Made by a program: the position numbers and the translations under genes
In this document: positions 1,612-15,649 of the stretch, piece after piece
Layout of the letters: every line of letters begins with the position of its first letter
Numbering within the stretch: position 1 is the first letter of the stretch
The notes under the pieces: model-generated
Database searches by the model: none
The model's input: only the letters and a program-made list of their open reading frames with translations
What the model was told of the DNA's origin: nothing
Source of the DNA: a virus
IMG/VR virus record: IMGVR_UViG_3300033153_001766
Coordinates: 1 to 24,168 of that record
DNA: 24,168 nucleotides
Direction: 5' to 3' (one strand)

Positions 1612-1976
1612 AGCTAACAACAAAAGTAGACAGACATACACATATCACTCACTGGATAAAACTTTGGAACGGTGGGATGCAACTCACTGATAAAGAGCAA
1701 GTTTTCTTCGGAGAGATACTGTATAGATATATGCACTTGATGGACAAAGGAATCAAAGAGCCTTACTTGGGCGAACTTGTGTTTAGCACTAAGCAGATGC
1801 AAGAGATCAAAAGTAAGCTGAAGTTGTCCAAACAAGGATTAACAAACTACAAGATGGCCCTGAGAGATAAAGGCTGTATTGTGAAAGGGGAAGAAGGATG
1901 GTTTGTACCTGAGATCTTGATACCGAAAAAGGAGGTAACATTTAGTTTTGAGTATGAAAAACGAACCAGTAACTAG
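1608..1976 (+). CDS. Probable helix-turn-helix protein
   Basis: A 122-residue protein whose layout suggests a winged-helix DNA-binding fold: a helix starting LTDKEQVFFGEILYRYM (residues 27-43), then FSTKQMQEIKSKLKLS (59-74), a candidate recognition helix KQGLTNYKMALRDKGC (75-90), and a beta-wing-like end, IVKGEEGWFVPEILIP (91-106). This resembles the arrangement in RepL-type proteins, but the closing NP motif is absent, so the family is uncertain. A role in phage gene regulation or replication is inferred from fold and neighbours only. The next gene starts 23 bases inside its 3' end, and a TAnnTTTG promoter-like box lies inside its last codons. Confidence 0.6.
   Translation: MKLTTKVDRHTHITHWIKLWNGGMQLTDKEQVFFGEILYRYMHLMDKGIKEPYLGELVFSTKQMQEIKSKLKLSKQGLTNYKMALRDKGCIVKGEEGWFVPEILIPKKEVTFSFEYEKRTSN
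1943..1950 (+). promoter_or_regulatory. TAnnTTTG promoter-like box, 3 bases before ATG
   Basis: TAGTTTTG matches the Bacteroidota minus-7 element TAnnTTTG and is followed by AGT and then the ATG at 1954. A TTG at 1917-1919 lies 23 bases upstream and could act as a loose minus-33 element. The box sits inside the 3' end of the preceding gene. The same arrangement occurs at 9356 and 14939, which raises confidence in this weaker example. A GGAGG at 1931-1935 is too far (18 bases) from the ATG to be a usual ribosome binding site. Confidence 0.4.
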
Positions 1977-9314: not shown

Positions 9315-9334
9315 AGGAAGTACATAGACTTCCT
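9315..9334 (+). terminator. Hairpin between portal module and scaffold gene (weak terminator or operator)
   Basis: AGGAAGT, a six-base loop, then ACTTCCT form a perfect 7-bp stem, with GGATTTT following. The T run is only four long and offset by three bases, so termination would be partial. The hairpin lies 21 bases upstream of the TAnnTTTG box at 9356, so the same inverted repeat could be an operator for that promoter. It sits in a 78-base gap without a gene. Confidence 0.45.
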
Positions 9335-9355: not shown

Positions 9356-9363
9356 TAACTTTG
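9356..9363 (+). promoter_or_regulatory. TAnnTTTG promoter-like box, 3 bases before the scaffold ATG
   Basis: TAACTTTG matches the Bacteroidota minus-7 consensus and is followed by AGT then ATG at 9367. No convincing minus-33 TTTG or TTG is present at the usual distance. The position fits: an otherwise unexplained gap ahead of the capsid genes, following a hairpin. With the box centred near minus 7, transcription would begin at or beside the A of the ATG, giving a leaderless mRNA. Confidence 0.5.
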
Positions 9364-9366
9364 AGT

Positions 9367-10542
9367 ATGGGAAAGACAGAAGAATCGTTCGTAGACGTTT
9401 GGGGATTCGATACGAGCAAGTACAACGCTGACTCTGATGCCGCTGAAGAAGTGGATGTAAAAACAGAGCAAGGTGTAAGTACTATTGACCAGGAGCCAGA
9501 AGCTCCAGAAGACAAGGATAAAACTAAGCCAGAAGATGGTGTTCCAGGGGAATCTGAGGAGACAGACGCCGGTGAGAAACAGGGCGCGGAAGAGGAGAAA
9601 CAGGATACTCCTCCAGCAGAAGAAAGTAAGGAAGATGCCTCACCAAAACCTCAGAAAGAAGAGGAACCAGCTGAGCAGGTAACAGAATACCAAGAGCTCG
9701 CACAAGGCCTAGTTAACGAAGACCTACTTGATTTCGATGATGAGAAAGAGTATGATTTCGATTCCGAAGAGGGTTTAAAAGAACTTATCTCGGAAACAGT
9801 AGAAAAACGTTCTGCTGCAGCGATTAGCACTTACAAGGATAACTTGGGTGAAGAAGCGAAGCAGTTACTAGAAGTGTTGGAAAAAGGAGGTACAGTAGAT
9901 GACTTCCAAAAGCTTAACCAACAAATCGACTTCAAAGACATTCCTTTGGAGGATAAGAACGGAAACGCTTACGAAAAGAACCAGATGTATCTTATCGAAG
10001 ACTGGATGAAAGTTCAGAACTATGATAAGGAGGAGATTGAAGAAACAATCAACGATTACGTCGAAGGAGGGTTACTTAAGAAACAAGCAGCAATCGCTCA
10101 AAAGAAGCTAGCTCAATGGCAAGAGAAAGAGAACAAAGCGTTACTCGCTCAGAAAGAACAAGAGCAAGCTGAAGCACAGAGAATCGCTGAAGAGCAAGCA
10201 ACTAACTTTAAAGAGTCGGTTATTGCTACGAGAGAGATCTCTGGATTCAAAGTAACTGAAGCGAAAGCTAAGAAACTATATGACTTCATCACTGCTAAAG
10301 ACAAGGATGGTAAGTCAGAGTTTGACAAGAGAGATACTCCTGAGAATAGACTTCTTTACGCATACTTTGCGATGGAAGGATTTGACAAGGAGAAGCTTTC
10401 AAAAGAGATCGCTAGCAAACAAGCTAAGTCTCTGAAGAGAAAGTTAAGTAGATTCTCAGACAGCAATGCTGCTCCTAAGAGATCTGCTAACGAAGTAAAA
10501 AGAACTAATCAAGAACTAGGGGATATCCCTTGGTCAATGTAA
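9367..10542 (+). CDS. Probable scaffolding protein
   Basis: A 391-residue acidic protein immediately before the major capsid gene, the classic position of a scaffold that guides prohead assembly and is later lost. The N-terminal third (about residues 25-110) is highly acidic and low-complexity (EEVDVKTEQ, EEEKQDTPPAEESKED), probably disordered. Residues about 120-230 are mixed helices, about 235-285 form a Gln/Glu/Lys/Ala coiled coil (AIAQKKLAQWQEKENKALLA), and the C-terminus is basic (KSLKRKLSRF, KRSANEVKR), as in scaffolds that bind capsid protein through a basic end. I start at ATG 9367, not the TTG at 9361, because the TTG is part of a promoter-like box. The major capsid gene begins 21 bases downstream. 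Confidence 0.75.
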   Translation: MGKTEESFVDVWGFDTSKYNADSDAAEEVDVKTEQGVSTIDQEPEAPEDKDKTKPEDGVPGESEETDAGEKQGAEEEKQDTPPAEESKEDASPKPQKEEEPAEQVTEYQELAQGLVNEDLLDFDDEKEYDFDSEEGLKELISETVEKRSAAAISTYKDNLGEEAKQLLEVLEKGGTVDDFQKLNQQIDFKDIPLEDKNGNAYEKNQMYLIEDWMKVQNYDKEEIEETINDYVEGGLLKKQAAIAQKKLAQWQEKENKALLAQKEQEQAEAQRIAEEQATNFKESVIATREISGFKVTEAKAKKLYDFITAKDKDGKSEFDKRDTPENRLLYAYFAMEGFDKEKLSKEIASKQAKSLKRKLSRFSDSNAAPKRSANEVKRTNQELGDIPWSM

Positions 10543-10563: not shown

Positions 10564-12027
10564 ATGGCAAGTACTACTAAAGTATCACCGTTACAGGTGT
10601 ATCAATCTAGAGACTTCTCAGGTTTGACGGAAACAAATCACCTGTCCAACGCATACTTGACTGAACCTGAAAAGGTAGGGTCAGTGTTAGCTTATGCTTT
10701 CGGTATTCAGGATAATAACGTTTTGTCTTTGTTAACTGGAGGAATCGGTAACACTCTGTACGTAACAGACAGAGAGTATGAGTGGATGTTACATTCACAA
10801 TCAGAAAGAGCGATTGAAGTACAGCAAGACACTGCTGGAACCAACGACACACCAGGTTATGCAGGAGCACAGTTCCAATTAATCCTTGCGGAGAAATGGT
10901 TCGAGGTTACTGATAACTTGATCGCAGATGACACAAGAACACAAGTTCACGTTGTATCTGAACCATATCAATCAGGAAGTGGATGGGTTTACACCGTTCA
11001 ATTAACAGACCCTTCTTACGAAGCATTCTGTGATCCTGATTTCTTAAAGCCGGGAGCTCGTTGGTCGAAAGACTGGAGTTCAGTTGAGGAATACTCAATC
11101 AAAGGTGGTGGACACGGGTACTCTACTCCTTACAAACTACGTAACCAACTTACAACAATGCGTAAGACTTACAAGGTTACTAGAGAAGCTGCACAAGCTG
11201 TAATGGTAGTTGAGTTATTCTCACCAGATGGTTCTCAATCAACTAAGCTTTGGACTAAGCTTGCTGAGTGGACTGCAATGGCTAAGTGGTACAGAGAGAT
11301 TGATAGATCATTCATCTACTCGAAGTACAACAAAAACTCTCAAGGTATTGTTACCTTACAAGGAGAGAACAAGAGACCAATCTACCACGGTGCTGGTTTC
11401 AGAGAGCAGATTTCACCTGCTAACAAGCGTTACTACACAACTTTAACATACGAGATCTTGGATGAGTTCTTACTTGACTTAAGCTACGCAGCTGATAAGT
11501 GGGGTGGAGATCATAAGTTCGTTGCCTTAACAGGTAAGATGGGTATGAGAGAGTTTGACAGAGCGATGAAAGAGTACAACAACTCTAACGGTATCACGAT
11601 TACTGATCACGGTACATTCATCACTGGAAAAGGAGACGAACTTGGTATCGACGGTTACTTCAGAACTGTGAAGTTCATGAACGGAATCGAGTTGACTATC
11701 AAAGAGTTCCCTCCATACGATGACATCATCCGTAACAGAGAGGTTCACCCTCTTACAGGTAAACCAGTTGAATCTTACAGATTCACAATCTTGAACTTCG
11801 GTCGCAAGAATGGTAAAGCCAACATTAAGAAGGTGGCAATGAAAGATTCAGACATGGCTATGTGGCATGTGAATGGATCAACTGATCCTTATGGAGGAGT
11901 AGCTAAGTCTATCTCTACTATGAGATCAACAGGTATCGACGGATATGAAGTTCACTTCTTATCACAATGTGGTATCATGGTTGAGGATCCAACTTCGTGT
12001 GGTGAATTAATCTTAAGAATCTGCTAG
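10564..12027 (+). CDS. Major capsid protein (crAss-like type)
   Basis: A 487-residue protein that forms the icosahedral shell (HK97 fold in this group). The features I recognise from crAss-like capsid proteins are LLTGGIGNTLYVTDREYEW near residues 56-74, KYNKNSQG near 258, FREQISPANKRYYTTLTYE, and especially LTGKMGMREFDRAMKEYN near residues 321-338. The gene is 21 bases after the scaffold gene, ends with TAG, and is followed by a strong terminator at 12047-12089, fitting high late expression. Codons look uniform and highly expressed in type. This is the strongest marker that the window belongs to a crAss-like phage. Confidence 0.93.
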   Translation: MASTTKVSPLQVYQSRDFSGLTETNHLSNAYLTEPEKVGSVLAYAFGIQDNNVLSLLTGGIGNTLYVTDREYEWMLHSQSERAIEVQQDTAGTNDTPGYAGAQFQLILAEKWFEVTDNLIADDTRTQVHVVSEPYQSGSGWVYTVQLTDPSYEAFCDPDFLKPGARWSKDWSSVEEYSIKGGGHGYSTPYKLRNQLTTMRKTYKVTREAAQAVMVVELFSPDGSQSTKLWTKLAEWTAMAKWYREIDRSFIYSKYNKNSQGIVTLQGENKRPIYHGAGFREQISPANKRYYTTLTYEILDEFLLDLSYAADKWGGDHKFVALTGKMGMREFDRAMKEYNNSNGITITDHGTFITGKGDELGIDGYFRTVKFMNGIELTIKEFPPYDDIIRNREVHPLTGKPVESYRFTILNFGRKNGKANIKKVAMKDSDMAMWHVNGSTDPYGGVAKSISTMRSTGIDGYEVHFLSQCGIMVEDPTSCGELILRIC

Positions 12028-12046
12028 ACAGATTCAAACTTAACAT

Positions 12047-12089
12047 GGCCCCCATGCCTCTGCTTCAAGCACACTTGGGGGTCTTTTTT
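12047..12089 (+). terminator. Rho-independent terminator after the capsid gene
   Basis: GGCCCCCA (12047-12054) pairs with TGGGGGTC (12076-12083), 8 bp including one G-T pair, closing a loop of about 21 bases, and is followed by TTTTTT at 12084-12089. It lies 20 bases after the capsid stop. Only 20 bases separate it from the next ATG and no promoter box is visible there, so downstream genes probably rely on read-through. That would set capsid protein well above the following gene. Confidence 0.85.
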
Positions 12090-12109: not shown

Positions 12110-12922
12110 ATGATAACAAAAGTAAAGAAGGTCGAGAGACTAATCAACTGGGGTGCTAAGGACCCAAAAACTGGTAAGACATTGCCGATGTATGAAAACT
12201 GCAACGACTCATTTGTACCAGGCTTAGACAAAGTAACAGGGGTGTTACGCACAGGTTTAACAAGCAAAGAAGAAGCGGACTTCGAAGACAGACTAGGTAT
12301 GGAGAAAGGAACTCTTGCCAAAAGCAGCTCTTACTGGAGAACGTTCAAAGTAAAGATTCCATCAGGGGGATTAACGTTAAACACAGATAATCCTAAGGAT
12401 GCTTTGACACATAAGGTGTTACAAGCAGATCCTACAGTTATTCAAAGTGTAGCTGAGTTAAAGAAAAACGCTCATGCAGAATACATGATGATAACAGAAT
12501 CTGGTGAAGCGAAAGTGAAGAATGTTGCTAGAAACATCATCGCTCAAGCGTACGCCAAGTTCGTTAAACTTACTCAAGCAGAGACAATCGACGCGTTGTA
12601 TATGTTTGGTAAAAACCCATCGGATATCGACTTCGAGGTTGCTCAAAACAGATTGGGTGAGATCGTTGAAGCAGATCCGGCTAACTTCTTAGCGGTAGTT
12701 GGAGATAAGTTATTCAAGGACAAAGTGTTCTTTATGAAGCTTATCCGAGAAGGAGTAGTTAAGAAACACGGTACAGGAACGGGAACTAACATGCCGTTGT
12801 ACTTTGAGGATATCATGTTAGGTTCTGGTTTGGAGGAAGCAATCGCCTTCTACAAGGACAAAGAAAACCAACAGATTGCACTAGGTATTAAGAAAGCGTA
12901 CGAAGCGATAATCAAACAGTAA
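12110..12922 (+). CDS. Capsid- or head-associated protein of unknown function (270 aa)
   Basis: This gene follows the major capsid gene and begins with an unusually clear ribosome binding site for this window, AGGGG at 12101-12105, four bases before the ATG. The first 120 residues hold several beta-like stretches (SYWRTFKVKIPSGGLTLNT), and the rest is helical (VARNIIAQAYAKFVKLTQAETIDALYMFG). My impression is that a protein of this kind follows the capsid gene in crAss-like genomes, but I cannot name it. A head-completion, capsid-auxiliary or connector part is the likely class, judged by position. Its stop overlaps the next start as TAATG. Confidence 0.7.
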   Translation: MITKVKKVERLINWGAKDPKTGKTLPMYENCNDSFVPGLDKVTGVLRTGLTSKEEADFEDRLGMEKGTLAKSSSYWRTFKVKIPSGGLTLNTDNPKDALTHKVLQADPTVIQSVAELKKNAHAEYMMITESGEAKVKNVARNIIAQAYAKFVKLTQAETIDALYMFGKNPSDIDFEVAQNRLGEIVEADPANFLAVVGDKLFKDKVFFMKLIREGVVKKHGTGTGTNMPLYFEDIMLGSGLEEAIAFYKDKENQQIALGIKKAYEAIIKQ

Positions 12923-14865: not shown

Positions 14866-14892
14866 GATCCCTTCCTACCACTCTAGAGTCTA

Positions 14893-14923
14893 GGGAGAGG
14901 CGTATTGTCTCTCCCTTTTTTTT
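14893..14923 (+). terminator. Strong rho-independent terminator
   Basis: GGGAGAG (14893-14899), a nine-base loop, and CTCTCCC (14909-14915) form a perfect 7-bp stem followed by eight T (14916-14923). It begins 27 bases after the stop of the 396-residue protein. A separate 10-base palindrome ACTCTAGAGT lies just before it at 14880-14889. A promoter-like box follows at 14939, so this marks a transcription boundary between connector/capsid genes and the tail genes. Confidence 0.92.
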
Positions 14924-14938
14924 GTCCCATCCTTTCCG

Positions 14939-14946
14939 TATATTTG
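14939..14946 (+). promoter_or_regulatory. TATATTTG promoter box, 3 bases before ATG
   Basis: TATATTTG is a perfect TAnnTTTG box. CGT follows and then the ATG at 14950. A TTTG at 14921-14924 lies 14 bases upstream, shorter than the usual minus-33 spacing and partly made by the terminator's T run, so I do not count it firmly. Its place between a strong terminator and a gene start makes a real promoter likely. Confidence 0.6.
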
Positions 14947-14949
14947 CGT

Positions 14950-15333
14950 ATGCTACTTTCAGAGATAGTCTATAATATTAAGAACCTCCTAGCAGGGGGT
15001 ATAGAGTCAGATGATGAGAACCTGTCTAATGCACAGGTAGGCTTCATGGTTGGCTACTACCGTTCTAAGCTGTTTAAACAGGAAGCTGACAAAGGTCGTT
15101 TATCTAAAGAACGCTGGGTTCAGAACCTAGGTAAAGTTCCTGTACAAATGGCTGATAAGAACGAGTGTTGTGATATCGACACGTGTATCATGAGAACCAA
15201 AGAACAAATCCCACTACCGATAGAATCAAACAAAGGTATCAACTTGACTTTTGTTGGAGGATTGAACGGTACTCCTTGGCAAAAGTACTCACAACGGAGC
15301 GTATTGGTCGATGGCGAACAAGTACACTGGTAA
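14950..15333 (+). CDS. Ring-type tail-connector protein, N-terminal part (frame-split)
   Basis: 127 residues starting MLLSEIVYNIKNLLAGG. An upstream in-frame start at 14905 would lie inside the terminator stem, so the ATG at 14950 is preferred. The segment with DENLSNAQVGFMVGYYRSKL and the cysteine cluster ECCDIDTC resembles the first half of ring proteins in crAss-like phages as I remember them. The final residues after about position 110 (SQRSVLVDGEQVHW) look non-native. In the +1 frame the same bases read HNGAYWSMANKYTGN and run into the next gene. I take this as the N-terminal half of a single protein of about 232 residues, interrupted by a frameshift between 15266 and 15333, either real recoding or a sequence error. 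Confidence 0.7.
   Translation: MLLSEIVYNIKNLLAGGIESDDENLSNAQVGFMVGYYRSKLFKQEADKGRLSKERWVQNLGKVPVQMADKNECCDIDTCIMRTKEQIPLPIESNKGINLTFVGGLNGTPWQKYSQRSVLVDGEQVHW
15266..15333 (+). other. Window in which the reading frame must change (+1)
   Basis: In the frame of the downstream half the last upstream stop is TGA at 15263-15265. In the frame of the upstream half the first stop is TAA at 15331-15333. Any joining event must fall between them. The smoothest join is near CAAAAGTACTC at 15280-15290, giving WQ(K/S)-HNGAYWSMANKYTG. An AAAA run at 15281-15284 is a plausible place for either an indel or slippage. Confidence 0.55.
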
Positions 15334-15649
15334 CATAACACGTTGGTATTATCAGAACGGGTACATCTATATCGTGAATCCTCCAACTTTGATGATGGAT
15401 TCTATCAACATTCAAGGAATCTTTGAGGAGCCTATGGTTGCTGAGAAGTTCCGTACTTGTGATTGTCTAAACGAAACTACTTGTATCGACGAGGATACAC
15501 TAGATTTCGAGTACAAGATGCCGCTTCACTATGTAGACACAATCGTTAAGCTAGTAGCTCAAACCGAGTTAAGGATTCTGACATCTCTTCCTATGGATAT
15601 GTCAAACGATTCTGTAGACCAAGTAGCGAGACATGCCGGAAGTAAGTAA
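15311..15649 (+). CDS. Ring-type tail-connector protein, C-terminal part (frame-split)
   Basis: Counted from the ATG at 15311 this is 112 residues, MANKYTGNITRWYYQNGYIY onward, but the frame is open back to 15266 and upstream codons read THNGAYWS, which look like native protein. The sequence (NGYIYIVNPP, then FRTCDCLNETTC, then LPxHYVDT-like MPLHYVDTIVKLVAQTEL) fits the second half of the ring protein whose first half is encoded at 14950-15333, one frame away. If made alone from this ATG, it would lack the N-terminal domain. It overlaps the HU/IHF-like gene after it by 17 bases. The beta-rich character and the order suggest a ring stacked below the portal. Confidence 0.65.
   Translation: MANKYTGNITRWYYQNGYIYIVNPPTLMMDSINIQGIFEEPMVAEKFRTCDCLNETTCIDEDTLDFEYKMPLHYVDTIVKLVAQTELRILTSLPMDMSNDSVDQVARHAGSK

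Follow-up and report, generated by a model that had tools for sequence, protein, structure and literature searches.

Probable host-type promoter boxes beside conserved start codons predict leaderless late mRNAs in a crAss-like phage

Probable promoter boxes next to the start codons of two late operons

Two -7 boxes in the window, the whole stretch of 24,168 nucleotides analysed, very probably act as host-type promoters giving rise to late mRNAs with no leader or almost none. Located at 9356 (TAACTTTG) and 14939 (TATATTTG), both have the form TAHHTTTG, and we consider it likely that they act as Bacteroidota sigma-A -7 elements of late structural operons, with mRNA starts at most about 2 nt from the AUG.

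Gene content places the window, a 24 kb fragment, among the crAss-like phages (Crassvirales): it encodes Crass_capsid and CrAss_Ring proteins, and the portal and TerL genes occur in the usual order. The genes concerned are:

3633, TerL
5929, portal
9367..10542, + strand, putative scaffold gene, head of the scaffold-capsid operon, with homologues in relatives; named solely from its position just before the capsid gene
10564..12027, + strand, major capsid protein (Crass_capsid PF23898, E 1.2e-140)
14950..15333, + strand, tail ring protein 2, N-terminal part, head of the tail operon (PF25702)
15311..15649, + strand, tail ring protein 2, C-terminal part, in another frame (PF25702)
16058, ring 1

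Among annotated phages, capsid identity to the window does not exceed about 45%, and relatives in IMG/VR range from 91% down to about 50% identity. For comparison we defined clade A by a capsid identity of at least 73% (18 loci including the window) and clade B as more distant relatives with 59-64% capsid identity. Capsid relatives were also sought in bacterial genomes as a hint to the host, and none was confirmed there.

The box-ATG pattern in the window

The pattern TANNTTTGNNNATG has exactly three matches in the window, all on the + strand (1943-1956, 9356-9369 and 14939-14952, with ATGs at 1954, 9367 and 14950). Dinucleotide shuffles contained 0.20 matches on average, and none of 100 reached three, which bears out the proposal of the first-pass annotation that three occurrences of TAnnTTTG-N3-ATG are far from chance. 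Its count of roughly ten TAnnTTTG matches on the + strand was too low: the box alone (TANNTTTG) occurs 30 times over both strands, 14 of these on the + strand (shuffle mean 17). The GT before the ATG, to which attention had likewise been drawn, is present at all three sites but carries little weight, since a pyrimidine at -1 is common generally. Across the 840 gene starts examined, 57% have T or C at this position, so that a GT or pyrimidine before the ATG was rejected as an initiator signature; for starts of the capsid gene, where no box is adjacent, the figure is 24 of 26.

The three sites share a spacing of 3 nt, and this identity does not extend to relatives as a rule, where the box lies 3 or 4 nt (scaffold gene) or 3-6 nt (ring gene) from the ATG. 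Sites of the form TANNTTTG-N3-ATG are few in relatives, with a count not far above that of a reversed-pattern control, and an exact spacing of 3 as a genome-wide rule was therefore rejected.

The match at 1943 is most likely coding sequence, as judged from conservation:

1943..1950, + strand, match TAGTTTTG, judged not to be a promoter, inside the conserved C-terminal coding end TFSFEY of ORF 1608-1976

The site encodes F-S-F-E-Y at the end of this ORF. Relatives preserve the TFKF residues of a TFxFxY end and not the box (TAAGTTTA, TAAATTTT), and in some of them the distance from the box to the next ATG is altered. In addition, TAGTTTTG departs from TAHHTTTG by a G at the third position, which is virtually never found in the -7 boxes of F. 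johnsoniae (PMC6847099). With the C-terminus of the upstream ORF conserved and the box lost or its distance changed, 1943 was rejected as a promoter. The genes at 1608-1976 and 1954-2316 share a 23 nt overlap; in relatives, the codons for TFKF at the end of the first gene reach into or adjoin the ATG of the second.

The first-pass annotation had proposed leaderless promoters read by the host at all three sites and had named absence of the motif from close relatives as grounds for abandoning this view. Such a loss is seen at 1943, where the end of the protein dictates the match. At 9356 and 14939 the box is kept in relatives at conserved ATGs, and 14939 also follows a terminator, so that the proposal is supported for these two.

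The probable scaffold gene promoter

The predicted promoter of the scaffold gene comprises:

9356..9363, + strand, -7 promoter box TAACTTTG, 3 nt before the ATG at 9367
9364..9366, + strand, AGT between box and ATG, with a +1 predicted at or beside 9367 on the basis of PMC6847099

A box of the form TAHHTTT(G/A) stands 3-4 nt before the orthologous scaffold ATG in 17 of the 18 clade A loci, window included, compared to an average of 0.15 and at most 2/18 in shuffled upstream regions; as in all our locus counts, relatives share ancestry and are not independent events. The 18th locus (L078) has TATATTCG at 3 nt, and many boxes in relatives terminate in A, not G. The spacing is 3 nt in nine loci and 4 nt in the other nine; no other spacing occurs. 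On the capsid tree, it switches between 3 and 4 nt at least six times.

In clade B, the box lies 19-32 nt from the scaffold ATG, typically about 22 nt, which leaves a leader of host style that often contains AACAACAA. Of 19 clade B loci, 10 have a TTTG 21 nt upstream of the box (shuffles: mean 0.58, maximum 3), while only one of the 18 clade A scaffold sites has this -33 element. The element is hardly evident among mapped F. johnsoniae promoters (PMC6847099), and hence it is not strictly defining. Adjacent and distant boxes interchange at least three times on the capsid tree. Since the box can occupy differing distances in the two clades, it behaves as a promoter. No comparable motif is present at the start of the adjacent capsid gene.

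Homology in relatives begins at the scaffold ATG, and the ORF from 9367 contains no further in-frame ATG for 206 codons, indicating that this conserved AUG is the translation start. The TTG was rejected as a start codon: it is in frame solely at spacing 3 and, being out of frame at spacing 4, is not a conserved feature.

A probable terminator-promoter joint at the ring gene

Upstream of tail ring protein 2, three elements follow one another between 14892 and 14950:

14892..14923, + strand, intrinsic terminator AGGGAGAGGCG-TAT-TGTCTCTCCCT with T run, closing the preceding operon
14939..14946, + strand, predicted -7 promoter box TATATTTG, 3 nt before the ATG at 14950
14947..14949, + strand, CGT between box and ATG, with a +1 predicted at or beside 14950

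With the terminator followed at once by the predicted promoter and the AUG, the end of one operon and the start of the next fall within about 60 bp. An intrinsic terminator lies directly upstream of the ring gene in 33 of 34 distinct loci (shuffles: mean 6.2, maximum 10). The box occurs 3-6 nt from the conserved ring ATG in 22 of the 34 (shuffles: mean 0.63, maximum 4); the other 12 have no recognisable box at this distance. Homology in relatives begins at the ATG at 14950. In most clade B ring loci the T run of the terminator stops 13-15 nt before the ATG, and thus the 5' leader would be very short at most, barring terminator read-through. A comparable layout of the ring gene is found in the gut phage cr109_1.

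Comparison with hosts and cultured phages

The phage boxes have the same -7 consensus as Bacteroidota sigma-A (sigma-ABfr) promoters, described as TTTG/TAnnTTTG (PMC6847099, PMC7366714, PMC9723704). Clade B phages share the -33 TTTG of these promoters, whereas clade A lacks it, and clade A also differs from the host in the position of the box. Among 957 genes from Bacteroidota genomes, the distance from box to ATG peaked at 19-36 nt and only two boxes lay at 3-4 nt; in contrast, 19 of 476 clade A phage genes had a box at 3-4 nt, mostly scaffold orthologues. According to published data, leaderless genes amount to 5.5% in F. psychrophilum, and leaders under 10 nt to about 3.7% in B. thetaiotaomicron. 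The cultured phage phi14:2 has host-type boxes as in the window, at distances of 4 nt (g110), 5 nt (g070) and 6 nt (portal gene). Phage crAss001 has host-type boxes too, but all six in its first 50 kb lie 19-35 nt from the gene.

The closest described arrangement is that of Deinococcus-Thermus, in which reporters showed that a -10 motif next to ORFs drives leaderless genes (PMC12340547). There, likewise, the core element lies a few bp before the start codon and is subject to a spacing requirement. However, that is a bacterial phylum with TANNNT, whereas here a Bacteroidota phage carries TAnnTTT(G/A), found at certain late operons, in one case directly coupled to a terminator. In lambda, host RNA polymerase produces a phage mRNA that has no leader, the cI mRNA from PRM; cI is a repressor gene of an enterobacterial phage, in contrast to the late structural operons described here.

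Proposed mechanism and alternatives

We infer that host RNA polymerase with sigma-A would bind the -7 box, that transcription would start at or beside the A of the ATG, and that the host ribosome would initiate at the 5'-terminal AUG without a leader. The sigma-A step is most likely on two grounds, the consensus and the published attribution of late crAss-like transcription to host RNA polymerase, which is expected to be rifampicin-sensitive (PMC10136315, PMC8375218). As implied by the positions of box and terminator, the 5' ends would lie at or near the AUG. Their exact place matters, since the gap between box and start in F. johnsoniae is usually 4-5 nt (PMC6847099); with the box 3 nt away, transcription would then begin at the T or G of the ATG. 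Either this gap is reduced by one nucleotide at these sites, or the AUG is present on only some of the transcripts. The extreme form of the latter, a true promoter with +1 on or after the T or G, AUG-less transcripts and protein made mainly from longer read-through mRNAs, would agree with the usual host gap and with the G as a normal purine start at spacing 3, but appears unlikely. At the scaffold gene, boxes at 4 nt, for which +1 would fall on the A, are no rarer than boxes at 3 nt, and the ring spacings of 3-6 nt all put +1 at or beside the AUG. Moreover, the terminator cuts the ring gene off from upstream transcription, and the ATG is the only conserved start. We also regard it as improbable that a phage-encoded or virion RNA polymerase reads these promoters, in which case the mRNAs might still be leaderless. 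Crass-like phages do carry a virion RNA polymerase, but this enzyme is reported to act on early genes (PMC10136315); the motif fits the host sigma-A box, and in clade B the host -33 element is present as well, at 21 nt.

Two further readings dispense with a promoter. The motif might be a translation signal, an A/U-rich start context within a longer mRNA, as A-rich start contexts are used by Bacteroidota and gene starts in these phages are generally A-rich at -3 and at -11 to -14. This is very improbable: the motif equals the sigma-A -7 consensus, in clade B it is found about 22 nt away together with a -33 TTTG, and the adjacent capsid gene starts without it. The existence of orthologous genes with and without a leader likewise indicates a promoter and not a translation signal. 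To chance or coding constraint as the source of all three matches we give almost no credence. It is likely true of 1943, with its conserved TFxFxY end and a box that is not kept, but is already contradicted for the other two, which are intergenic and conserved far above shuffles, and a terminator lies upstream of 14939.

Host-type promoters with leaderless or nearly leaderless mRNAs at 9356 and 14939 would be of wider interest, as late promoters of crAss-like phages have hardly been described; a 2023 review of the order does not contain the word promoter (PMC10136315). Our literature search found no report of leaderless crAss-like mRNAs; late transcript starts of phi14:2 have possibly been mapped (Drobysheva 2021). 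The results suggest that these phages may have their virion genes translated from leaderless mRNAs, in hosts where such mRNAs form only a small minority, and that late promoters of two structural operons may abut the start codon in a group of environmental crAss-like phages, an arrangement rare in the bacterial hosts. The box-to-ATG pattern provides a testable sequence rule for the heads of late operons, and the orthologous genes offer a natural comparison of a host-type promoter with and without a leader. With the boxes of phi14:2 at 4-6 nt from its genes, the leaderless prediction is testable in an existing phage-host pair.

A dyad upstream of the scaffold box

A symmetrical element precedes the scaffold promoter:

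9315..9334, no strand assigned, inverted repeat AGGAAGT-ACATAG-ACTTCCT, upstream of the scaffold promoter

In both clades, dyad symmetry is highest at 26-28 nt upstream of the scaffold box, with differing letters (clade A: 3.82, shuffle maximum 3.00; clade B: 5.88, shuffle maximum 3.26). Forms in relatives include GTACAC-N7-GTGTAC and ATAACAAA-TTTGTTAT, among others. The dyad keeps its position relative to the box, not the ATG, suggesting that a regulator may bind the DNA here; it is a candidate operator of a late regulator. It remains a lead because the best repeat of the window is weak and off-centre, about 31 nt upstream of the box compared to about 27 nt in relatives. A uniform hairpin at this place was rejected, since individual loci gave no significance; significance was confined to the position-fixed dyad profile. 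Exact GTACAY-N7-RTGTAC sites were sought in eight clade A contigs and a single one was found, upstream of the scaffold gene of G010; thus no regulon was found.

Tentatively, the compact terminator-promoter-AUG joints of late structural operons in this uncultured lineage might give truly leaderless mRNAs while a phage regulator on the dyad controls the scaffold-capsid promoter, a combination that we consider possible but doubtful. Under the same speculative scheme, the dyad about 27 nt upstream of the box would have diverged in sequence between lineages with its position unchanged.

Other features of the window

Tail ring protein 2 is broken across two frames in the window, both parts matching PF25702, whereas relatives encode it in one uninterrupted ORF of about 215-238 aa. 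Close to the break is an A run at about 15280, and either a genuine frameshift or an error of sequencing may be responsible. The capsid gene is followed by a terminator-like hairpin with a T run (12046-12089). The next gene, at 12110, lacks an adjacent box and has a leader rich in purines, and therefore seems to be expressed differently.
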